This document shows positions 8,423 to 20,166 of a DNA stretch of 21,191 nt, piece by piece (the first letter of the stretch is position 1; every line of letters begins with the position of its first letter). The translations under genes were made by a program, and so were the position numbers. The stretch lies in assembly GCA_017508895.1 (NCBI GenBank), contig JAFWRA010000269.1:1-21191 (forward strand). The letters are read 5' to 3'. This DNA comes from Bacteroidales bacterium (lineage in GTDB: Bacteria > Bacteroidota > Bacteroidia > Bacteroidales > F082). Under the pieces are notes generated by a model, which ran no database searches, was not told the origin of the DNA, and worked only from the letters and a program-made list of their open reading frames with translations.

Positions 8423-9706
8423 TCAAAGCAATGGTAACACCTTTCCCAGTTGTATGCTATTAGAGCCTTTGACGAGTATCGTCTTTCCGTTGAGGGGCTG
8501 ACCCTCAAGATATTGACACAAGTCTTCTACCTTTGCAAAGGTCTTCCAATTAGGATTCTCGTTGTAAGTGCTGAAGTTCGACCCGACCAACAAGGCCTCC
8601 TTGAATTTCAGTTCTTTCATCAACTCGAGGATGTTGCGGTGCTCTTCCTCTGAGGCTATTCCCAACTCTCGCATGTCACCTAATATTAATAGGTGTTCCT
8701 CTCCACAGATGCTAGCGAAGTTAATCAATGCGGCACGCATGGAAGTGGGATTGGCGTTGTAAGCATCCATGATGATGCGGTTCTTGTTGGTTTCAATCAC
8801 CTGCGATCGACTGTTGGTGGGCATGTAGGCTTCCAAAGCATCGATGATATCGTTCTCATCCACGCCGAAATATTGCCCCACGCAGATGGCAGCGGCCACA
8901 TTCTCGAAGTTGTAACTTCCCACGAGATGGGTCTGGATGAGGTGCTCCCTCCAGCCGACGCTCAAATATGGGTTGCAGGCAGCAGGGGCGACAGGGCAAA
9001 AGGCAGCGCAATGTCTGCCATAGCTGATACGTTCTTGCCCCTCTGATTGCTCCCAAAGCAGCGGATTGCCTTGGTTGACGAATACAGCCTTTCCGTTGGC
9101 TTTGATATGCCTATAGAGTTCGGCCTTGGTCTTGATGACACCTTCAAAGCTGCCAAATCCTTCCAAATGTGCCTTGCCGATGTTGGTGATGAGGCCATAA
9201 TCGGGGTCTGCGATTTTGCAGAGAAAGTCGATTTCCCCAGGGTGGTTGGCGCCCATTTCCACGACGGCAATCTCGGTCTCAGGCTTGATGCTCAGTAGGG
9301 TGAGTGGCACACCGATATGGTTGTTGAGGTTGCCCATCGTGTGGATGATGTTGTATTTCTTGGCCAGCACTGCCGAAACGAGTTCTTTAGTGGTTGTCTT
9401 GCCATTGGTGCCGGTGATGCTGAGCACTGTGGCCTTGCTCTGCGAACGGTGGTAGGCAGCTAAATCCTGCAAGGTCTTCAGCGTGTCATCCACAATCAAA
9501 ATGCGTTCATGCCGAGGTAGGTCTTTACGGTCGGCAACGACGAGACTGGCCACACCTTGCTCGGCTACTTGTAGGGCGAAGTCGTTGGCATCAAAGTTCT
9601 CGCCTTTCAAAGCGAAGAAGACAGCGTCTTGCTCAATCTTTCGACTGTCGGTAGAGACTTTATGGGCTTTGAGGTAGTGCTGGTATATCGTTTCAATTGG
9701 ATTCAT
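8423..9706 (-). CDS. murF: UDP-MurNAc-tripeptide-D-Ala-D-Ala ligase MurF
   Basis: Adds D-Ala-D-Ala to the UDP-MurNAc-tripeptide, the last cytoplasmic step of the peptidoglycan stem peptide. It is 427 residues long, near the usual length. Mur-ligase domains appear in order: an N-terminal substrate domain (about 1-90), the ATPase core with P-loop GTNGKTT at 99-105 and EMGANHPGEI further on, and a C-terminal domain. The motif RSQ...MDAYNANPTSMRAAL is typical of MurF. The ATG at 9704-9706 is the natural start. It lies directly downstream of gldJ, an arrangement also found in F. johnsoniae, with a hairpin in the 76-nt gap. Confidence 0.95.
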   Translation of the reverse strand: MNPIETIYQHYLKAHKVSTDSRKIEQDAVFFALKGENFDANDFALQVAEQGVASLVVADRKDLPRHERILIVDDTLKTLQDLAAYHRSQSKATVLSITGTNGKTTTKELVSAVLAKKYNIIHTMGNLNNHIGVPLTLLSIKPETEIAVVEMGANHPGEIDFLCKIADPDYGLITNIGKAHLEGFGSFEGVIKTKAELYRHIKANGKAVFVNQGNPLLWEQSEGQERISYGRHCAAFCPVAPAACNPYLSVGWREHLIQTHLVGSYNFENVAAAICVGQYFGVDENDIIDALEAYMPTNSRSQVIETNKNRIIMDAYNANPTSMRAALINFASICGEEHLLILGDMRELGIASEEEHRNILELMKELKFKEALLVGSNFSTYNENPNWKTFAKVEDLCQYLEGQPLNGKTILVKGSNSIQLGKVLPLL

Positions 9707-9782: not shown

Positions 9783-11279
9783 TTACTTTGCAAAGGAACT
9801 GCCTACCTTGTTCATGGCGCAACGGAAACCGATGGTGGAAGCAGATTGGTTTTGATTGAGGTATCGGCGGGTGCCGGGACTCAGGTAGTAGGGACCATCG
9901 GCCCAAGAGCCGCCTTTGTACACTCTTGATTCATCGCTGATAAGTGTCGTACCAGGGGTGTCGTTAGTGGCAGCTTCATACATCTCTTTTGTGAACACGC
10001 TTTGGTCGTCTTGAGGATCGCTCCAGCGGTTGCGGATGGCTGACATATAGTCACCGTCATCGTAGTTGGAGTTGAAGCTCGTACGGTAGTTCTGACGCTT
10101 GGCTGCTTCTTCCTGAGGGATGGGCTCTCTGCGGATACGGCCGAGGGAGTCTTTCTGCAGCAGGAAGCCTTCGTCGTCAACGGCCTTGCGGGTAAACACG
10201 TTACCACGGAAAGGACTATAGTCGGCCACATCTTCGAAGGAGAGGGGACGATAGACGTCTTGGCACCATTCGGAGACATTGCCAGCCATGTTGTACAAGC
10301 CGTAGTCATTGGGCCAATAGGAACCAACAGGGGCTGGCAGGGCGGCGCCGTCGTTCAGATTGCCGGCAACACCCATGTAGTCACCAGGGCCTCTCTTGAA
10401 GTTGGCCATGAAGCTACCCATATATCTCTTGTTGTCGGTGCGAAGGCCGTCGCCGTTCCAAGGATAAACCTTGCGTTCGCTGACGATTTCGTTGGAGGTG
10501 TTACCCACCAGGCCAACAGCTGCGTATTCCCATTCGGCTTCCGTGGGCAGACGGTAGGAAGGCAACAAAATACCATCGTCCATTCTAACGTTACGAACAC
10601 CATCGCCGCCTTTTGAAAGGTCTTTCTTGCCGTTCTTAACTTTACCCGTGTATTGTCCAGCCAGATATGCATCAGTGTTGAAGTTTTCCTCATCTTGTTG
10701 AGTCGGATCCCAATCAAGGATGCCCGCTTCAACGAGCATCAACTCATTGACACGGTCGGTACGCCATGCGCAGTAGTCATTAGCCTGTACCCAGGTCACA
10801 CCTACTACTGGATAGTCATTGTATGAAGGATGGCGGAAATAAATTTCAACCATGGGTTCGTTGTACGACAAACGGTCACGCCATACCAAAGTGTCGGGTG
10901 CAGCGTTACGTACTACTTGAGGGTAGTTTTGACCATAGACACGGTTCAGCCAGTAGATGTACTCGCGGTAGTCTACATTGCTGACTTCAGTGCGATCCAT
11001 GAGGAAAGAAGGCACGGTCACCTTACGTGGTGAGTTGTCCCACGAATAGGTCAAATTGTCGGTCGTGGCGCCCATGACAAAAGTACCGCCTTCGATGGCA
11101 ATCAGACCGGGACCGATTTCCTGGTCGTTGATTTCTGTAACTTCAAAGCCGCCATTGTTGGCATCGTTATAAGCCCAACCTGTTGTGCGTGAGGACTTCT
11201 TGGAGCATGAAACGGTTAGCAGCCCAGCCAAAACGATGATGGCAATTGTTTTGAATCCTTGTTTTCTATACATTTTCAT
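9783..11279 (-). CDS. gldJ: GldJ-like lipoprotein (SUMF1/FGE fold)
   Basis: A 498-residue lipoprotein with a signal sequence and candidate lipidated Cys25 (LTVSC). From about residue 55 to the end it has the formylglycine-generating-enzyme (SUMF1) fold, with GGTFVMG, RLPTEAEWEYA, YNMAGNVSEWC and the terminal GFRCAMN. GldJ and its paralogue GldK use this fold structurally for T9SS and gliding, not as an enzyme. The N-terminal TTGWAYND..NGGFEV and the location between murF and porU favour GldJ over GldK. F. johnsoniae GldJ is about 60 residues longer; this one ends soon after the fold and seems to lack the C-terminal tail needed for gliding there. Two in-frame ATGs lie at the start (11279 and 11273). 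It is divergent from the porU-like genes. Confidence 0.85.
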   Translation of the reverse strand: MKMYRKQGFKTIAIIVLAGLLTVSCSKKSSRTTGWAYNDANNGGFEVTEINDQEIGPGLIAIEGGTFVMGATTDNLTYSWDNSPRKVTVPSFLMDRTEVSNVDYREYIYWLNRVYGQNYPQVVRNAAPDTLVWRDRLSYNEPMVEIYFRHPSYNDYPVVGVTWVQANDYCAWRTDRVNELMLVEAGILDWDPTQQDEENFNTDAYLAGQYTGKVKNGKKDLSKGGDGVRNVRMDDGILLPSYRLPTEAEWEYAAVGLVGNTSNEIVSERKVYPWNGDGLRTDNKRYMGSFMANFKRGPGDYMGVAGNLNDGAALPAPVGSYWPNDYGLYNMAGNVSEWCQDVYRPLSFEDVADYSPFRGNVFTRKAVDDEGFLLQKDSLGRIRREPIPQEEAAKRQNYRTSFNSNYDDGDYMSAIRNRWSDPQDDQSVFTKEMYEAATNDTPGTTLISDESRVYKGGSWADGPYYLSPGTRRYLNQNQSASTIGFRCAMNKVGSSFAK

Positions 11280-11539: not shown

Positions 11540-14500
11540 ATGCATAATAAAACTCATATCGTATCGCTATTATTTCTGCTTTTGTTTACTTTTTTGGCTC
11601 CTGCGGTTTTCTTCGGACAGGTGAAAACGGACTATTCGATTCGATTGCAATGGAAAGGAGTGGTTGAGGAGCATTATGCTAACGACACAATACTATATAT
11701 CGGCCTTGAATCAGGGGAATATGAAAGTCCCATGCCGATTTTTTCCCAGTCGTTTCCTATTTATGACGATGCGGTAAAAGCAGAAGTGAAATGCCTGAAT
11801 GTGAAGACGGCCGCTCTTTCTGATGAAGAGATGCAGATTGCCAGAAATTATTCTTATGGCTCTAATTTTGAGATGGAGGTTTTGCCGATTCGTTCTCGTA
11901 ACGAGTCTTTTCTTTCGGTGCGTATTGTTCCGTTCCGTCAGTTGGGAGCCCAATACGAGAAGTTACTTTCCGCCACACTTTCTGTGACATTGGTTCCCGA
12001 ATTTGGAACTCAGAAAAATAATCCTGGCTTTAAGACATCTTCGGCTATGTCGAATGGGTCATGGTATAAAATAGGTCTTCACGAAACTGGAATATACAAA
12101 TTGACTGCTTCCGACTTGACGGACTTAGGAATTGATGTTTCATCAGTTGACCCGCGTCAAATTCGCATTTACCATAACGGTGGTGGAGTATTGCCTGAAC
12201 TGAATGCTGCTTCTCGCCCTGATGACTTGGTGGAGATTCCCATCTTTGTTTCAGGAGAGGCTGATGGCAGGTTCGATAACGGAGATTATATTCTGTTTTA
12301 TGGTCGTGGCCCGGTTTGTTGGAAGCGTGACACGGAAAGGACGGCTTATGTCCATGAACAAAATCCTTACGATGATTATGCCTATGCTTTTGTCGTTTTG
12401 GGTTTGGGCGCAGGTAAGCGTATTAGTGAGGCGGGAGTGCCTTCAGGTTCGGTTGAGGCTACTGTCAATCAGTTTATTGACTATCAGGTGTATGAAAAAG
12501 ATGATTATAATTTGAACCATTCGGGTCGCACTTATTACTGTGACAGGATGGATCTTACCTCGACCAAGAATTATAATTTCACATTCAGCAATGTGATTAC
12601 AACTAAACCATGTTGGGTTAAGACGGCATTGGCGGGCCGCAACTTCAAGCCCGCTAACTTTGAAGTGATGGTCGACAATGTGAAGAAAGCTACTTATCTC
12701 GTCGCTGCAACCACCAGTTCAACACAGCACCCTTATGGTTATGAAGTGGGTGGATGGGTCACTGCACATCCGTCGAACGAAACGATTCGCATCACTTTGA
12801 AACATGATGCCTTGGGTGCAAGTTCCACTTCAGAAGGCTATGTTGATTATATTCTCGTTAACGCATGGCGCAGCCTGAAGATGACTGGCGGTCAAATGCT
12901 TTTCCGGAATCCCGACGCAATTATTAATAATAAGGTGTACGAATACCAGCTTTCGGGTGCTTCGCAGCAAATGCAAGTGTGGGATGTGACCGCCCCGACA
13001 TCTCCGAAAAAGGTGAAAGGACAACTCAATGGTTCTCTATTCAGTTTCAAAGTAGTGGGAGATCCTTCAAACGAGTTCGTGGCATTTAACGGCAATGCTT
13101 ACTGCTCAGCAAAGTCTTTTGGCAAAGTTGACAATCAGAATCTTCACGGTGTACGTGATGTGGATTTCGTCATCCTTACATACGCAGATTTCAGTTCGGA
13201 GGCTGAGCGACTAAAGGCCCTTCACAATCGAATTGACCCGGATTTGAATATTTATATTACTACCCCTGAACTGGTTTATAACGAGTTCAGCTGTGGCGCT
13301 AAGGATATCTCGGCCATTCGTGATTTCTGCCGTATGCTTTATCTTGACAGCAGTCCTGGCCGCAAAATCAAATATCTGTTGCTGTTGGGTGATTGTTCAT
13401 ACGATTACAAGAATCGTGACGGGATTGTGGATTTTGTTCCTTCCTATGAAGCCGTGCTCTCGCTTTATATGAGGGATGCCTATGTTACGGATGATTATTT
13501 CGGTTGTATGGATGAAACCGAAGGCAATATTGGACATTCTTTGGCTGATATTGGCATTGGCCGTTTTCCAGTGACTACTCTTGAACAGGCTTCTCAAATG
13601 GTTGACAAAGTGGAACGCTATGTCGTGAAAGATGCCAATACAATGCAGCCGTGGCGTAATACTGTCACCTTCTTTGCAGATGATGGTGAAGGCGATTTTG
13701 TGAACAATGCTGAGACACTGGTTAGCATGTTGCCGGGTGTGGGTGGCGATGGCGTTGTGGTCGACAAAATATATCTTGATGCATATCCGCAAATCAGCGC
13801 GCCAGGTGGTGAAATTGCCCCTGAGGTGAATGCTGCTATCAACAGCCGCATTGAGAAAGGGACCTTGGTGCTCCATTATGTCGGCCACGGCGGCGAGGTG
13901 CAGCTCTCGACGGAGAAAATCATGCAAAGGAAAGATGTTGACTCTTGGCGTAATGCCCCGATGTATCCGCTGATGATTACGGGCACTTGTGAGTTCAGCC
14001 GTTATGATGACCATGTCCGCACTGCCTTGGGCGAATATGCATTTCTGAATCCCTATGGCGGCATGGTTGCCATGTTTACTACATCTAGATTGACAATGGG
14101 AGGCGACAATCAAGACTTTGCTAAAGGTATTTATAACAATTTGTTCCGTATTAATGGTGGCGAGCATTACCGCTTGGGTGACGTCTATCGCATGGCAAAG
14201 ACAAAAGGAAGTTATGCCGAGAAACGTTATGTCTTTTTTGGCGACCCTGCATTGCGTCTGGCCTATCCGAAGTGGAAGGTGGAGACGTTGAGCATCAATG
14301 GTCAATATCCAGGGTATGATTTGGACTCTATCCAAATCAACGACACCACTTGGCAAACTTATCCTCTTTATCGTGATACTATCAGTGCTTTGCAGCCCGT
14401 TGAGATTGAAGGCGTCGTGAAAGATTTAGACGGTAATGTGGCCACTGGCTTTAACGGTGTGGTGCATGTGACGGTTTATGACAAGGCGGCGGAACTCGCC

Positions 14501-15406
14501 ACCTTGGGTACGGCAGATGCCAATAACCATGTCTATCATTTCAATTTGAGGAATAGTGTGATATTCAATGGGAAAGCAGAAGCTGTAAACGGCAGGTTCA
14601 AGATTAATTTCATTGTGCCGCGAGACATAGCCTATCGCTATGGACAGGGCTTGATAAATTATTATGCTACGGATTATGAGGTGGACGCAAACGGGAATTG
14701 CGATTCGTTCATCATCGGCGGTTTCTATGATGATGCTTTTGAGGATAACGATCCGCCGGAGATACGGCTTTTCATTGACGATACCTTGTTTGTGGACGGA
14801 GGCGTGACGAGCGAGAACCCCATCTTGCTTGCCTACATCGAGGACGAGAGTGGTATCAATACTACAGGCGCTGGTATCGGGCACGACATCATGGCTTCGC
14901 TAACAGGACCGTCGCGCAACGCGTATTGTCTCAATGACTATTTTTCAGCCAAAATCGACAAGCCTGGCCATGGTACCATTACTTACAAGATGCAAGACCT
15001 GCCCGATGGGGATTATACCCTGACTTTGAAGGTTTGGGATATCTATAACAACTCGGGCACCGCCACCATCAACTTCACCGTGATTAACAGCGGTGGCATG
15101 CACGTTGAGAACGCTTACAACGTACCCAATCCTGTGACGGACGAGACTTGTTTTGTATTCGATCACAATCAGGTGGGTAACAATGTGAGAGTGAATATCT
15201 ACATCTATGATATAATGGGCCGTTGGGTGAACACGCTATCTGAGACCGTAGCTGGCACCTCGACCCGCATTGCGCCTATCCACTGGAATGGTTGTGGCGC
15301 AAATGGCGAACGTCTGCGAAATGGCATCTATGTCTATCGTATCGTTGCCGTTAATGATCAGGGTGAAACGGCCTCAATAGTATCAAAGTTAGTTTTAAGT
15401 AAATGA
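11540..15406 (+). CDS. porU: PorU-type C25 cysteine protease/sortase, copy 1
   Basis: A 1288-residue secreted protein with an N-terminal signal peptide (cleavage near residue 26). Residues about 27-170 are an N-terminal region missing from copy 2. A shared domain begins at Trp175. The gingipain-type C25 peptidase domain spans about 540-910, with catalytic His783 in GHGG and Cys817 in TGTCEFSRYD, 34 apart as in gingipains. A T9SS-type C-terminal domain (about 1190-1288) starts at NVPNPV and contains YDIMGRWV and NGIYVYRI. PorU removes the C-terminal signal of T9SS cargo at the cell surface and joins cargo to anionic LPS. Position next to gldJ and before porV, and a length close to F. johnsoniae PorU, support the name. 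Which of the two copies is the true sortase is open. Confidence 0.88.
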   Translation: MHNKTHIVSLLFLLLFTFLAPAVFFGQVKTDYSIRLQWKGVVEEHYANDTILYIGLESGEYESPMPIFSQSFPIYDDAVKAEVKCLNVKTAALSDEEMQIARNYSYGSNFEMEVLPIRSRNESFLSVRIVPFRQLGAQYEKLLSATLSVTLVPEFGTQKNNPGFKTSSAMSNGSWYKIGLHETGIYKLTASDLTDLGIDVSSVDPRQIRIYHNGGGVLPELNAASRPDDLVEIPIFVSGEADGRFDNGDYILFYGRGPVCWKRDTERTAYVHEQNPYDDYAYAFVVLGLGAGKRISEAGVPSGSVEATVNQFIDYQVYEKDDYNLNHSGRTYYCDRMDLTSTKNYNFTFSNVITTKPCWVKTALAGRNFKPANFEVMVDNVKKATYLVAATTSSTQHPYGYEVGGWVTAHPSNETIRITLKHDALGASSTSEGYVDYILVNAWRSLKMTGGQMLFRNPDAIINNKVYEYQLSGASQQMQVWDVTAPTSPKKVKGQLNGSLFSFKVVGDPSNEFVAFNGNAYCSAKSFGKVDNQNLHGVRDVDFVILTYADFSSEAERLKALHNRIDPDLNIYITTPELVYNEFSCGAKDISAIRDFCRMLYLDSSPGRKIKYLLLLGDCSYDYKNRDGIVDFVPSYEAVLSLYMRDAYVTDDYFGCMDETEGNIGHSLADIGIGRFPVTTLEQASQMVDKVERYVVKDANTMQPWRNTVTFFADDGEGDFVNNAETLVSMLPGVGGDGVVVDKIYLDAYPQISAPGGEIAPEVNAAINSRIEKGTLVLHYVGHGGEVQLSTEKIMQRKDVDSWRNAPMYPLMITGTCEFSRYDDHVRTALGEYAFLNPYGGMVAMFTTSRLTMGGDNQDFAKGIYNNLFRINGGEHYRLGDVYRMAKTKGSYAEKRYVFFGDPALRLAYPKWKVETLSINGQYPGYDLDSIQINDTTWQTYPLYRDTISALQPVEIEGVVKDLDGNVATGFNGVVHVTVYDKAAELATLGTADANNHVYHFNLRNSVIFNGKAEAVNGRFKINFIVPRDIAYRYGQGLINYYATDYEVDANGNCDSFIIGGFYDDAFEDNDPPEIRLFIDDTLFVDGGVTSENPILLAYIEDESGINTTGAGIGHDIMASLTGPSRNAYCLNDYFSAKIDKPGHGTITYKMQDLPDGDYTLTLKVWDIYNNSGTATINFTVINSGGMHVENAYNVPNPVTDETCFVFDHNQVGNNVRVNIYIYDIMGRWVNTLSETVAGTSTRIAPIHWNGCGANGERLRNGIYVYRIVAVNDQGETASIVSKLVLSK

Positions 15407-18400
15407 GAATAGGTATGAAAAGAAGGAATATTATCGTTTTGTCGAGCATCTTGCTATTGATGTTTTGTGCTCAAGTAGGCTTGGCTCAAGAGAATACTTA
15501 TCAGTCGGTGCTGAGCAACCATACTTGGCATCGTCTTTCTGTGACTCGGGAAGGCGTATATCAGATGGATTATGCCACATTACAAGCTATGGGCATTGAT
15601 ATAAGTAGCTTGAATCCAAATCAGATACGTATTTTTGGCAATGTTTCGGGGATTCTGCCTGAAAAGAATTCCGAAGCCCGTCCCGATGACCTGACGGAGA
15701 TGGCCATTTGTGTTACAGGTGCCGAAGATAATAGTTTTGACGAGGGTGACTTGGTATTGTTTTATGGTCAAGAACCAACGCGTTGGATTTTGGTTGACGG
15801 AAACAACAAAACCTATCGGCGCGAGCGCAATTATTATTCCGACACCACCTATTATTATATGTGTGTTGACAGTGGCAATGATGGACTGAGGGTGGGAGAG
15901 AAGCCCTCTCTTCCCTTGGAGGACGCTACGACGATTATCACAGAATTCCCTGATTATTTTTGGCATGAGGAAGAACTGTTTTCACCTTATAATATTGGAC
16001 AGAATTGGTTCGGCGAACGTATTTCTTCTGAAAATACAGAACTATCTGTACCATTTGTTTTCCCCAATTTGGTGAAAACCAAGGCCCTGACTGTGAATGC
16101 TCAAGTTTTGGGCCGAATCATGAGCGGTTATTTGTATTATGATGTTTGGGTGAAAGACAATCACGTCATGGATAATGTGTCGGTGAAGTATTATGGCAAG
16201 AACTTTTACGGAAGGTTGTCGTCTTTCGAGAAGCAAATCATGTTGGATTCTGATAGTGCAAGCTTCGATTTGAGCTTGCGTTTTGATCCGCTGGCTTCCA
16301 TGTATTTGGATTATGTGGAGGTGTATGGTTGGCGTCAGCTGATACGTACGGATGATAATTTTCTTTTCCGCTTGATGCCAAGCCAGTTTGGCGATGAAAA
16401 GAGTGCTGTTTGGGTGCAAAATACGGATTCCGATTATCTGCTTTGGGAGGTGACCTCTCCCTTGCGGCCAGTTGTCCAGGATGGCGTATTAAGTGGTGGT
16501 AATTTGGTGTTCGCCACTGATGAGAGGACGGAAAAACGATTTGTTTTGTTCAAGCCTTCCGAGACGTATCATGTCGCAAGTTGGACGTCGCTGCCCAACC
16601 AGAATGTGCATGCCATAGCCGAAGCTGACAATCTGATTCTTACCGTACCTCTCTTTTGGGAACAGTCACAGGCTTTGGCGGATTATCATGCTGAAAAGGA
16701 TGGGTTAACAAGTGTGCTTGTCGATGTGAATGAGATTTACAATGAGTTTTCGACGGGTCGGCCCGAGCCTACAGGTATACGCGATTTTGTCCGCATGGTT
16801 TATCGACGTAGTGGAGGAAGACTTAAGTATCTGACCTTATTTGGTCGGTCTTCGTTTGATTTCCGCGACATTTTAGGCGCTGGAAAAGATTTCGTGCCTT
16901 GTTATGAAACCATGAATGAACCTCATAATCAGGTAAGCTTCTGTTCCGACGATTATTATGCCTTGATGGATGATAACGAAGGATCCAACTGTGGAGGCCG
17001 TGTTGACATTGGCGTCGGTAGGATTCCTGTTTCTTCAGTGGAAGAAGCCGAGACGGTGTTGCGAAAGATTTATCATTATGATGATTTGGCAGCTACACAA
17101 GGCCAATGGAAGACGGATGTGCTGTTTTTCGCTGATGATAAGGATTCAGGTTATGTAAGAAACAGTGAGACGTTTGAGAGTATGATGGATACCATTTGTC
17201 CTCCTTTCACAGGCAAAAAGGTGTATTGTGGAGCCTATCCCGTAGTCAACACTTCGAGTGGCGTGACAATTCCTAACGCCACTTCCGATTTGTTGCAGAC
17301 GCTGGATAAAGGTGTGCTGGCTGTGATTTATACAGGTCATGGTGGCGTCAGGGGATTGACAGAAGACAATGTCTTCACCAATGCCGACATTACGTCTTTG
17401 CAAAATTATGACAGGATGCCTTTCGTTTTTACCGCTACCTGTGAGTTTACCAAATATGATAATCCTTTGCTGGTCTCAGCTGGCGAATTATTGTTCTTGA
17501 ATCCTCGAGGCGGCTGCGTGGCATTGTTCACCGCCTGCCGTCCTACCTATGCTCACGACAATCTTCGTCAGTCAAAGGCACTTATGGATGTGCTCATGCG
17601 GCGTGATGAAGAAGGACGGCCGCTTCGTTATGGTGATATCGTTATGAGGGCAAAGAGCAACCTGCTCAACTATGATAACCAGAATAATCCGATCAACAAT
17701 AAAAACATCCGGTATCTGTTTGTAGGCGATCCATTGCTACGCTTCCCCATGCCGCAGGAAAATATCGTTGTGCAGAAAATCAACGGCGAATTGGTTGGTG
17801 GAACAGATAACCTTAATCTCCATGCAATGAGTATGGTCACGGTGGAAGGTGAAATCAGAACGCAAACGGGCACACTCGATAATGGATTCAACGGAACTCT
17901 TTGGGTCAGGTTCTATGACAAAAAATCGAAAATGAAGGTGGTATTCGATCACGATCCTTCCAAAAATGTGTATTATTATAAGGATGTGCTTTATCAAGGG
18001 CAGGTCAGCGTGAATGCTGGTAGATTTACTGTGTCGTTCCAAGTACCTTTGGATATCAAGCCTGAAAGTGGTGTGCCGCGCTTCAGCTTCTATGCTTATG
18101 ATTCCATTCGAGGAGTGGATGCTATGGGTAAGTTTGATGACCTTATTTTGGGCGGCATTGACCCGGCAGCTTTCCCTGACGATCAAGGTCCAACGATTTC
18201 GTTCTATTGGAACTCGCCCGATTTCGTAAATGGTCAGTCGGTGGAACGTCAGGGTGTACTTTATGCCGACCTTTATGACGCCCAAGGCATTTATCACTAT
18301 GATTATTGCTTAGGACGTGACATTGTTTTGAATAGTAATTATTCCTCCTATAATCGTATCGTTCTCAACGATTGTTTTGAGCCTGCCTTGAACGACTTCC

Positions 18401-18834
18401 GCCGTGGGCGGATAGCTGTTCCTCTTTCTGATCTTGAACCTGGCACTTACGAGTTTGACCTCAAGGTTTGGGACACTCAAGACAATTCTTCCGAGGCCAG
18501 TCTTTGGTTTGTCGTTGATGATGACCTGTATCTGTCGCAAGTGTTCAATTATCCCAATCCATTCTCTGAAGAGACTTATATCACGTATAGTCATACAGGT
18601 GAAGACGGTGATTTTGAAGTTAATATAGAGATTTTCGATATCATGGGGCGACCAGTGCGCCACTTGCATCGTAAGGTCAGTGCAATGGAAGGCACTATCG
18701 AACCCATCCGTTGGAATGGCTGTGACTATTCGGGAACACCCTTGCGTTCAGGTATTTACCTTTATCGTCTCACCTTGACCGATGAATCTGGATACTTCCG
18801 TACCGTCAGTCAGCGTATGATAATCCAACGTTGA
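15403..18834 (+). CDS. PorU-type C25 cysteine protease/sortase, copy 2
   Basis: A 1143-residue protein collinear with copy 1 from Trp42 onward (Trp to catalytic His is 604 residues here, 608 in copy 1); by eye, about 40% of residues match over the first 66 aligned. A signal peptide (MKRRNIIVLSS... to about GLAQ) is followed almost at once by the shared domain, so the N-terminal region of copy 1 is absent. The C25 domain spans about 407-785 with His646 in GHGG and Cys680 in TATCEFTKYD, both intact. A T9SS C-terminal domain (about 1045-1143) has NYPNPF and FDIMGRPV. The ATG overlaps the copy-1 stop as ATGA; a second ATG at 15415 gives a cleaner signal peptide. Length is near P. gingivalis PorU, and porV follows, so this copy may be the sortase. 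Confidence 0.87.
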   Translation: MRIGMKRRNIIVLSSILLLMFCAQVGLAQENTYQSVLSNHTWHRLSVTREGVYQMDYATLQAMGIDISSLNPNQIRIFGNVSGILPEKNSEARPDDLTEMAICVTGAEDNSFDEGDLVLFYGQEPTRWILVDGNNKTYRRERNYYSDTTYYYMCVDSGNDGLRVGEKPSLPLEDATTIITEFPDYFWHEEELFSPYNIGQNWFGERISSENTELSVPFVFPNLVKTKALTVNAQVLGRIMSGYLYYDVWVKDNHVMDNVSVKYYGKNFYGRLSSFEKQIMLDSDSASFDLSLRFDPLASMYLDYVEVYGWRQLIRTDDNFLFRLMPSQFGDEKSAVWVQNTDSDYLLWEVTSPLRPVVQDGVLSGGNLVFATDERTEKRFVLFKPSETYHVASWTSLPNQNVHAIAEADNLILTVPLFWEQSQALADYHAEKDGLTSVLVDVNEIYNEFSTGRPEPTGIRDFVRMVYRRSGGRLKYLTLFGRSSFDFRDILGAGKDFVPCYETMNEPHNQVSFCSDDYYALMDDNEGSNCGGRVDIGVGRIPVSSVEEAETVLRKIYHYDDLAATQGQWKTDVLFFADDKDSGYVRNSETFESMMDTICPPFTGKKVYCGAYPVVNTSSGVTIPNATSDLLQTLDKGVLAVIYTGHGGVRGLTEDNVFTNADITSLQNYDRMPFVFTATCEFTKYDNPLLVSAGELLFLNPRGGCVALFTACRPTYAHDNLRQSKALMDVLMRRDEEGRPLRYGDIVMRAKSNLLNYDNQNNPINNKNIRYLFVGDPLLRFPMPQENIVVQKINGELVGGTDNLNLHAMSMVTVEGEIRTQTGTLDNGFNGTLWVRFYDKKSKMKVVFDHDPSKNVYYYKDVLYQGQVSVNAGRFTVSFQVPLDIKPESGVPRFSFYAYDSIRGVDAMGKFDDLILGGIDPAAFPDDQGPTISFYWNSPDFVNGQSVERQGVLYADLYDAQGIYHYDYCLGRDIVLNSNYSSYNRIVLNDCFEPALNDFRRGRIAVPLSDLEPGTYEFDLKVWDTQDNSSEASLWFVVDDDLYLSQVFNYPNPFSEETYITYSHTGEDGDFEVNIEIFDIMGRPVRHLHRKVSAMEGTIEPIRWNGCDYSGTPLRSGIYLYRLTLTDESGYFRTVSQRMIIQR

Positions 18835-18882
18835 TGCGAAATTTTTTTTCGAACCGGTACAATAAGCCATTTGAATAATCGT

Positions 18883-18890
18883 TATCTTTG
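18883..18890 (+). promoter_or_regulatory. -7 box of porV
   Basis: An exact TATCTTTG lies 49 nt after the copy-2 stop and 25 nt before the porV ATG at 18916. No good TTG is seen at the expected -33 distance. It indicates that porV can be transcribed separately from the proteases and that translation starts at 18916, not at the upstream in-frame TTG at 18871. Confidence 0.55.
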
Positions 18891-18915
18891 CAATATTAAA
18901 ATACGGAATTTGAAT

Positions 18916-20166
18916 ATGAAAATCAAGAAAACTCTCGTTGCCGCCCTATTGATGGTTGCGGCAGTATCTTATGGACAGAACAACAACTACATTGGACAGG
19001 ATTACAGTGTTTCTCCTAATGTGATTACGACAGCTGTACCATTTGTTTCTATCGCTCCTGATGCTCGTGGCGGTTCGATGGGCGATTGCGGTGTGGCCTC
19101 TGAGACGGATGTCTATTCCATGAATTACAATGCTGCAAAGTATGCATTTATGGAAGACAAGTTCTCGATCGGCCTTGGCTATAGCCCTTGGCTGCAGAAG
19201 CTGACTAAAGACATGCGTCTTGCATATTTGGCAGGGGCGTATAAAATCAATGACCGCTCTTCGGTAGCGGCAACACTTCGCTATTTTAGTTGTGGTGAAA
19301 TCGAGTTTAGGGATAACAACAACATATCACAAGGTAAATACAGCCCCAATGAATGGGCTATTGATGCTACCTATTCTCGTATGCTCGGCGATTATCTGTC
19401 GGGTGCCGTGGCAGGCCGTTTCATCTATTCCGACCTGACCCAAAACCAGACCGACTATGGCCGTCCCGGCATTTCTGTAGCTGCTGATGTTTCCGTGTAT
19501 TATAAGAAGCCAGTGGAATGGTTCAGCAGTATGGATGCCGACTTTGCATGGGGCGCATCCATCAACAACATTGGTAGTAAGATTACCTACAACGGACAGT
19601 CAGACCGCCGCGACTTCATTCCGACTACATTGCGTGCTGGTACCAGTCTGAAACTTGAACTTGATGAGTACAATTCATTGGCCTTCATGGTCGATTTCTC
19701 CAAACTCCTGGTGCCTACACCTCCAGTTATTGAAAGAAACGAAGCAGGACAACCTGTGGTCAATGATGATGGCAGCTACAGGATTTTGTATGGTTACAAT
19801 AACAACGTTTCCGTGGTACAAGGTATGATTCAATCCTTCTACGATGCTCCTGGATACGGATGGAGTGAAGAGAAGCAAGATTATGTACATTACGGCACCT
19901 TCTATGAGGAATTGTGCGAGATCAACATTGGTGCAGGTGTTGAGTACTGGTATAACAACGTCTTTGCTGTGCGTGCCGGTTATTTCAATGAGACAGCTCT
20001 GAAGGGCAATCGTAAGTATGTCACCCTTGGTGCCGCTTTGAAATATAATGTGTTTGGCTTGGATGTCTCTTATCTGATTCCTGTGAATAGTGTTGTGGGT
20101 AGCAATCCTTTGGAGAACACCTTACGTTTCAATCTCACTTATTGCATGGGCAGAAAGAAGGGCTAA
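18916..20166 (+). CDS. porV: T9SS outer-membrane shuttle protein PorV (LptO)
   Basis: A 416-residue outer-membrane beta-barrel of the FadL-like type. In the T9SS, PorV collects folded cargo from the translocon and hands it to PorU at the surface. The signal peptide is MKIKKTLVAALL to about SYGQ. The family hallmark follows: NVITTAVPFVSIAPDARGGSMGD..GVAS and then NYNAAKYAF. The rest consists of alternating beta-strand segments ending in an aromatic-rich barrel strand. The frame is open from 18871, but the region before 18916 contains the -7 box and would not make a signal peptide, so 18916 is chosen. It follows the two protease genes and ends at a strong terminator. Confidence 0.94.
   Translation: MKIKKTLVAALLMVAAVSYGQNNNYIGQDYSVSPNVITTAVPFVSIAPDARGGSMGDCGVASETDVYSMNYNAAKYAFMEDKFSIGLGYSPWLQKLTKDMRLAYLAGAYKINDRSSVAATLRYFSCGEIEFRDNNNISQGKYSPNEWAIDATYSRMLGDYLSGAVAGRFIYSDLTQNQTDYGRPGISVAADVSVYYKKPVEWFSSMDADFAWGASINNIGSKITYNGQSDRRDFIPTTLRAGTSLKLELDEYNSLAFMVDFSKLLVPTPPVIERNEAGQPVVNDDGSYRILYGYNNNVSVVQGMIQSFYDAPGYGWSEEKQDYVHYGTFYEELCEINIGAGVEYWYNNVFAVRAGYFNETALKGNRKYVTLGAALKYNVFGLDVSYLIPVNSVVGSNPLENTLRFNLTYCMGRKKG

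Follow-up and report, generated by a model that had tools for sequence, protein, structure and literature searches.

Two ancient and probably active PorU paralogues in tandem in a type IX secretion locus of Bacteroidales

What is known of the attachment step of the type IX secretion system (T9SS) comes mainly from Porphyromonas gingivalis and a small number of related bacteria, which have a single PorU. In P. gingivalis, too, porV adjoins porU. Here we describe a 21,191-nucleotide stretch of a Bacteroidales genome (contig JAFWRA010000269.1 of assembly GCA_017508895.1; this whole stretch is called the window), in which two porU genes lie head to tail before porV, as an initial annotation of the DNA had stated. 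We call their products PorU1 (the gldJ-side, or first, copy) and PorU2 (the porV-side, or second, copy). The tandem pair is real, and chance is ruled out because the two are full-length homologues of one family in a conserved synteny. The two genes are ancient paralogous PorU sortases, probably both active. On balance we consider it likely that PorU1 is the standard sortase, and that PorU2 is an accessory, probably active paralogue that works beside it on the PorV/PorZ attachment complex and has no separate class of cargo.

Both proteins match the PorU equivalog NF033707 over their whole length (PorU1 1147 bits, PorU2 993 bits; cut-off 420), in support of the earlier assignment of both to the PorU type; membership of the fold of the solved PorU was found, and the C25 peptidase domains score 297 and 289 bits in a Pfam search. 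The T9SS C-terminal domain (CTD) ascribed to both copies is recognized by TIGR04183 (24.9 bits in PorU1 and 25.6 in PorU2, both over the cut-off of 23), with Pfam PF18962 remaining under its cut-off of 27 in both (20.4 and 22 bits). The catalytic pair is kept as annotated: His783/Cys817 and His646/Cys680 share the same two alignment columns, with H and C in both copies. The copies are identical at 29 of the first 66 shared residues (44%, where about 40% had been estimated by eye) and at 348 of 1094 overall (32%), while BLASTP gives 31% over 1178 columns. The long-form N-terminal domain NF052318 is present in PorU1 (46.6 bits, cut-off 40), and the window's PorU2 has no listed match to it in the profile search. 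Within the window's genus, 19 of 35 PorU1 proteins but only 1 of 35 PorU2 proteins have the long form (length at least 1230 aa); in other families, 37 of 40 PorU2 proteins are long.

A C25 domain followed by a C-terminal sorting domain, as found in both copies, is also what an ordinary secreted gingipain-like protease sitting here by chance would have. We give this explanation virtually no chance for either copy, and rejected it: both are full-length matches to the PorU equivalog, the synteny is conserved, and in a tree of C25 domains a single branch separates 14 cargo domains from 30 PorU domains (support 96, with a warning from the tool that long branches meet there). Neither copy therefore branches with the cargo proteases, a possibility that the initial annotation had raised.

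The features of the locus are listed here.

11540..15406, + strand: PorU1 gene (gldJ-side copy), coding for a long-form protein of 1288 aa with a secretory N-terminus, the long-form N domain at residues 12-147, a PorU region that includes the C25 domain (residues 543-907; His783, Cys817), and a C-terminal sorting domain from about residue 1196 (from the list of open reading frames, profile searches and alignment; signal peptide by eye)
15403..18834, + strand: PorU2 gene (porV-side copy), 1143 aa; C25 domain at residues 411-780, His646, Cys680, C-terminal sorting domain from about residue 1050; start at 15403 or 15415 (from the same sources; signal peptide by eye)
15403..15406, + strand: ATGA, the PorU2 start over the PorU1 stop if that start is used (bases read)
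18871..20166, + strand: porV, T9SS outer-membrane shuttle, 431 aa as listed from TTG 18871; translation more probably begins at the in-frame ATG 18916
9783..11279, - strand: gene for a GldJ-like lipoprotein, divergent from porU1; TIGR03524 458.1 bits, just under the cut-off of 458.2
8423..9706, - strand: putative murF-like gene, a conserved neighbour serving as a synteny marker

The porV product scores 437 bits against NF033710 (cut-off 250; NCBIfam profile search). The ATGA reported at the junction of the two copies is in the DNA, but whether the genes overlap depends on the start. A second in-frame ATG at 15415 would leave an 8-base gap after the PorU1 stop, and the closest public relative (P0001, 1139 aa) begins at the equivalent of this ATG, 12 bases on; the relatives L084, L085, and L087 have no further ATG close behind the overlapping one. 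We rejected the overlap as strong evidence of coupling. It is weak evidence, because a last PorU1 codon ending in A together with a TGA stop makes an ATG by itself, and the other start is available in the window. A promoter and terminator scan of the locus gave no usable signal.

The occurrence of the pair was followed in genomes at increasing distance from the window, most of them metagenome bins. In the window's genus (36 members among 60 relatives), both copies are adjacent in 28, including G015, where the second copy runs off the contig end; seven have a single copy, and G017 shows fragments of the two copies on different contigs. G131, from the order sample, is an eighth single-copy member, and G032, counted as single-copy, carries a PorU N-terminal piece at the edge of another contig and has a contamination of 7%. 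The assignment of loci L171-L177, L185, L192, and L199 to this genus is a reading of the tree and of identical sequences. An order sample of 148 genomes drawn evenly contains 132 with a PorU match, and at least 23 of these have two adjacent on one contig, spread over 20 family codes; the count, made in fetched loci, is a lower bound because at most four candidates were scored per genome. By their position in the tree, the pairs of G057 (1.4 kb between the copies), G126, and G169 seem to have arisen separately or recently. Without them 17 family codes are left; 16 of these are clear, and the remaining one, f50 (L112), is less so, its second copy fitting and its first being oddly placed. The first copy of G100 is split in two. 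At the locus L208 (1-15111), gldJ is followed by three consecutive full-length PorU genes.

In a phylum sample of 198 genomes, with at most three candidates scored in each, 136 have a PorU over the cut-off. One PorU is found in 135 of these, in agreement with the earlier statement that model loci carry one, and two in G001, which is the window's nearest genome and the sole member of its order listed in this sample; two-PorU genomes outside the window's order number 0 of 135. The single PorU of G236 was seen as two matches of one frame. Unlisted matches in this sample score below 234 bits and hence below the NF033707 cut-off. Twelve listed proteins of 1360-1933 aa, from other classes, reach 234-259 bits to NF033707, and perhaps belong to the NF052324 family. 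A scan of named genomes took the loci of the best 80 of 586 relatives, the ranking being by similarity to PorU2, so that it does not give a frequency; it gave uncultured Bacteroidales bins, 38 loci carrying at least two PorU copies of 850 aa or more, and kin from Flavobacteriales, Chitinophagales, Cytophagales, and Saprospirales with one PorU each. Titles of records from the window's genus include yak abomasum, horse faeces, water buffalo cecum, UBA4243, and a number of RUG bins (RUG for rumen); other carrier families include a Lentimicrobiaceae bin (L219) and a Marinilabiliales bin. Among 120 listed PorU2 relatives, four are named "type IX secretion system sortase PorU", two "hypothetical protein", and the rest are unnamed. 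The pair, first noted as a feature of this locus, is thus not particular to it, being old and widespread in one order.

Phylogenies were built from 281 PorU rows of at least 850 aa, which after removal of 18 duplicates gave 263 distinct proteins for FastTree, and from chosen subsets of 80 and 46 of these. In the 80-row IQ-TREE all 29 second copies form one clade (99 by SH-aLRT, a likelihood-ratio branch support), all 29 first copies together with five singles form another (98), and the two are sisters (93); the branching within one copy clade largely mirrors that within the other. With a mixture model (46 rows), first copies with two singles (95), second copies (99), and the other singles (96) each occupy their own side. 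In the full FastTree, the gldJ-side group has 91 tips, comprising 76 of the 81 first copies and 15 singles, and the porV-side copies are elsewhere; the second-copy side also holds eight singles and three first-copy rows, 10 of these 11 in long-branched groups. Forcing the two copies of the window's genus into one clade was 146 log-likelihood units worse (p 0.005 in the approximately unbiased test), and a recent duplication inside the genus was rejected. As judged from these sequences, one old duplication in a Bacteroidales lineage gave most of the pairs, rather than many young ones, since the copies form their own clades and a within-genus duplication is rejected; the old duplication proposed at the outset is borne out by all three trees. 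Four loci (L116, L117, L119, L196) look like separate duplication events. The order of the pair beside gldJ and/or porV has been retained in 16 families of the order sample.

The singles that fall within the first-copy group imply that the second copy has been lost. In 12 of these 15 (L089, L091-L096, L137, L181, L193, L209, L218) porU is followed directly by porV, with a spacing of 83-106 bases in the seven that belong to the window's genus, and the twelve fall in eight separate single-only groups of the 263-row tree, some of them weakly supported. Of the remaining three, L090 lacks both porV and gldJ in the stretch examined, the second copy of L121 is truncated where the contig ends, and that of L191 is in pieces. 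PorU1 of L118 and PorU2 of L191 are each in two pieces, through decay or assembly error. No clear case of PorU1 loss with PorU2 kept was found among the loci read, the long-branched singles being candidate cases; in L203, which groups with the second copies as a single, part of a first copy lies where the contig ends. Because PorU2 has been lost repeatedly and PorU1 has not clearly been lost, the first copy looks like the standard sortase and the second like an accessory one.

Both copies keep their catalytic residues under selection. The His/Cys dyad is present in all 81 first copies, all 81 second copies, the one third copy, and all 100 singles (263 of 263). The ratio of nonsynonymous to synonymous substitutions (dN/dS) in six pairs from the window's genus, two of which have dS above 1, is 0.08-0.11 for first copies and 0.07-0.11 for second copies, indicating that both are under purifying selection in this genus. 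The surroundings of the active site differ between the copies. Glu786 (His +3) and Arg827 (Cys +10) are fixed in the PorU1 proteins of the genus (35 of 35), and Glu786 aligns with a Glu of gingipain RgpB; the corresponding PorU2 positions have 32 Val, 1 Leu, 1 Thr, and 1 Met at the first site (Glu in 0 of 35) and no Arg at the second (0 of 35). In other families the second copies keep the Glu in 26 of 40 cases and the Arg in 10 of 40. The column comparisons used 75 first and 75 second rows, without six loci whose copies are recent or odd (L112, L116, L117, L119, L196, and L238); strict specificity-determining columns across all families amount to a handful, and a family-wide specificity switch was rejected.

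The initial annotation suggested that the two copies might have divided functions, through different cargo cleavage sites, different acceptors, or one acting on the other. If the cargo were divided, each copy would cleave its own class of C-terminal domains or junctions. The divergent active-site loops in the window's genus and the old, stable retention of both copies would fit such a division, but the sister genomes with and without PorU2 argue against it, and we consider it very unlikely. Two genomes without PorU2 (100% and 99% complete) have 111 and 93 CTD matches, and two sister-group genomes that carry it (94% and 91% complete) have 103 and 114; for genomes of the genus that are at least 90% complete (G001-G036, G131) the scored matches range from 90 to 118, the latter being the scoring cap. 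Partial CTD matches, which start late, make up 36 of 204 without PorU2 and 46 of 217 with it (Fisher p 0.39, hand count). The composition of the junctions does not differ (chi-square p 0.57 for positions -30 to -8 and 0.13 for -40 to 0; 30 versus 29 usable CTDs of 60 each), and one 52-residue cargo/CTD junction is identical in L263, without PorU2, and L359, with it. These tests are coarse, using the best-scoring CTDs of two genomes per side, and are blind to the chemistry of linkage. Since cargo number and junction composition are alike, a gross split of cargo between the copies is not supported, and within this sister-genome comparison neither cargo load nor junction was accepted as a correlate of PorU2.

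Such similarity might instead mean that PorU2 supplies dosage only, the same activity twice for a very large cargo load. Cargo counts are indeed very high, and the largest sets of first-look cargo candidates are those of the window's closest relatives, all of which carry PorU2 (up to 231, in G001); the five genomes that lack PorU2 and are 90% complete or more have 98-125. Selection is equal on both copies, and PorU2 is dispensable. However, in the sister group compared, loss of PorU2 goes with no clear drop in cargo, the copies are only 32% identical, and the survivor is PorU1 rather than PorU2, making dosage alone rather unlikely as the explanation.

We also looked for a dedicated partner of PorU2 among PorV, scanned in 72 genomes, and PorZ. 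PorV-family genes number three in all 8 genus members without PorU2 and in 22 of the 28 with it, the other six carriers having 1, 2, 2, 4, 4, and 4; PorZ has one strong match in 34 of 34 genomes, with weak second matches in two. These counts do not follow PorU2, and a second PorV or PorZ as its own partner was rejected. A second PorV-like gene lies about 3.5 kb beyond porV in four loci (G003:C20:235311, G022:C19:59083, L171:16269, L175:16338), with PorV-family scores near 250 bits for those of G003 and G022.

The P. gingivalis structure PDB 6ZA2 carries the title "dimeric latent PorU", and a homodimer of this kind could have become a PorU1-PorU2 heterodimer, in which PorU2 gates or activates PorU1 or each copy keeps the other latent. 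The same strand, the close spacing, and the lack of a clear PorU2-only locus among those read are consistent with this, as is the correlation of 0.83 between PorU1 and PorU2 distances, given GldJ and PorV, in 27 genomes of the genus. Against this, the dyad is invariant, although a pure gate would not need it; PorU1 repeatedly copes without PorU2; and the partial correlation is only 0.36 in 25 genomes of other families (25 of 26 loci, one lacking a marker gene), not exceeding those of the two copies with PorV, given GldJ (0.38 and 0.48). We see heteromeric latency as rather unlikely. Less probable still is a more elaborate form, a two-subunit sortase derived from the P. gingivalis PorU homodimer, in which one active site would mainly cleave the CTD and the other would transfer the acyl-enzyme to a second kind of acceptor or release the cargo, each copy keeping the other latent until assembly on PorV.

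The best-supported reading thus makes PorU2 an accessory sortase that shares the complex of PorU1, with a mixed dimer and plain dosage as its rivals. PorU1 would be the CTD signal peptidase and sortase, cleaving T9SS cargo and joining it to surface polysaccharide. PorU2, working in the same PorV/PorZ attachment complex, with active-site surroundings that seem to have diverged in the window's genus, may widen the reach of the complex, through another acceptor, hydrolytic release, or extra capacity. Several observations weigh against this reading. The activity of both proteins is deduced from sequence, and equal cargo counts and junctions fit plain redundancy equally well. The second copy evolves faster, at a median of 1.44 times the rate of the first (351 of 351 pairs) in the genus and 1.2 times (295 of 300 pairs) in other families, but these pairwise distances, from the same genomes as the correlations, are not independent data points. 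In the genus the excess is largest around the active site (active-site loops 1.87, C25 domain 1.63, immunoglobulin-like domain 1.61, CTD 1.51, N region 1.38), a pattern that is absent in other families (loops 1.14, N region 1.12, CTD 1.34). P. gingivalis PorU itself has Pro and Thr at the Glu and Arg sites, so both states occur in PorU proteins and the changes need not alter function. Finally, the seven long-branched singles on the second-copy side of the FastTree would be PorU1 losses if they are truly of PorU2 type. Two of them (L134, L097), the only members of the long-branched second-copy-side groups that entered the 80-row IQ-TREE, lie outside both copy clades there, and the other five have a FastTree placement alone.

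A second PorU with an intact dyad is deeply conserved in a large, mostly uncultured part of Bacteroidales, gut bacteria included, and it follows that the model system represents only part of the range of the attachment step. The sister genomes with and without PorU2 provide a natural comparison of what decides the cleavage, anchoring, and release of surface enzymes, including in gut bacteria with about 100 or more T9SS cargo proteins.

In the open-licence part of the PubMed Central literature (including PMC11285876, PMC11969387, PMC4936053, and PMC5831590; subscription papers lie outside this scope) we found no description of a tandem PorU pair, so that to this extent the pair is not already described, as the initial annotation had allowed it might be. 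Among described proteins, the closest is P. gingivalis PorU (PDB 6ZA2; NF033707), which is homologous over its whole length and shares the C25 dyad and the C-terminal sorting domain; it differs in being one PorU, whereas here there are two side by side, of which PorU2 evolves faster and has repeatedly been lost. The NCBIfam family NF052324, "putative T9SS sortase PorU2" (with NF052325, PorV2), is likewise a second PorU-related protein with a C25-type region, but the window proteins score 145 and 157 bits against it, below its cut-off of 450, and the PorU2 described here is a second true PorU, different from the NCBIfam PorU2. The gingipains RgpB and Kgp are C25 proteins as well, but they are cargo and not machinery, and the C25 cargo proteins of the genus lie on the other branch of the C25 tree from both PorU copies.

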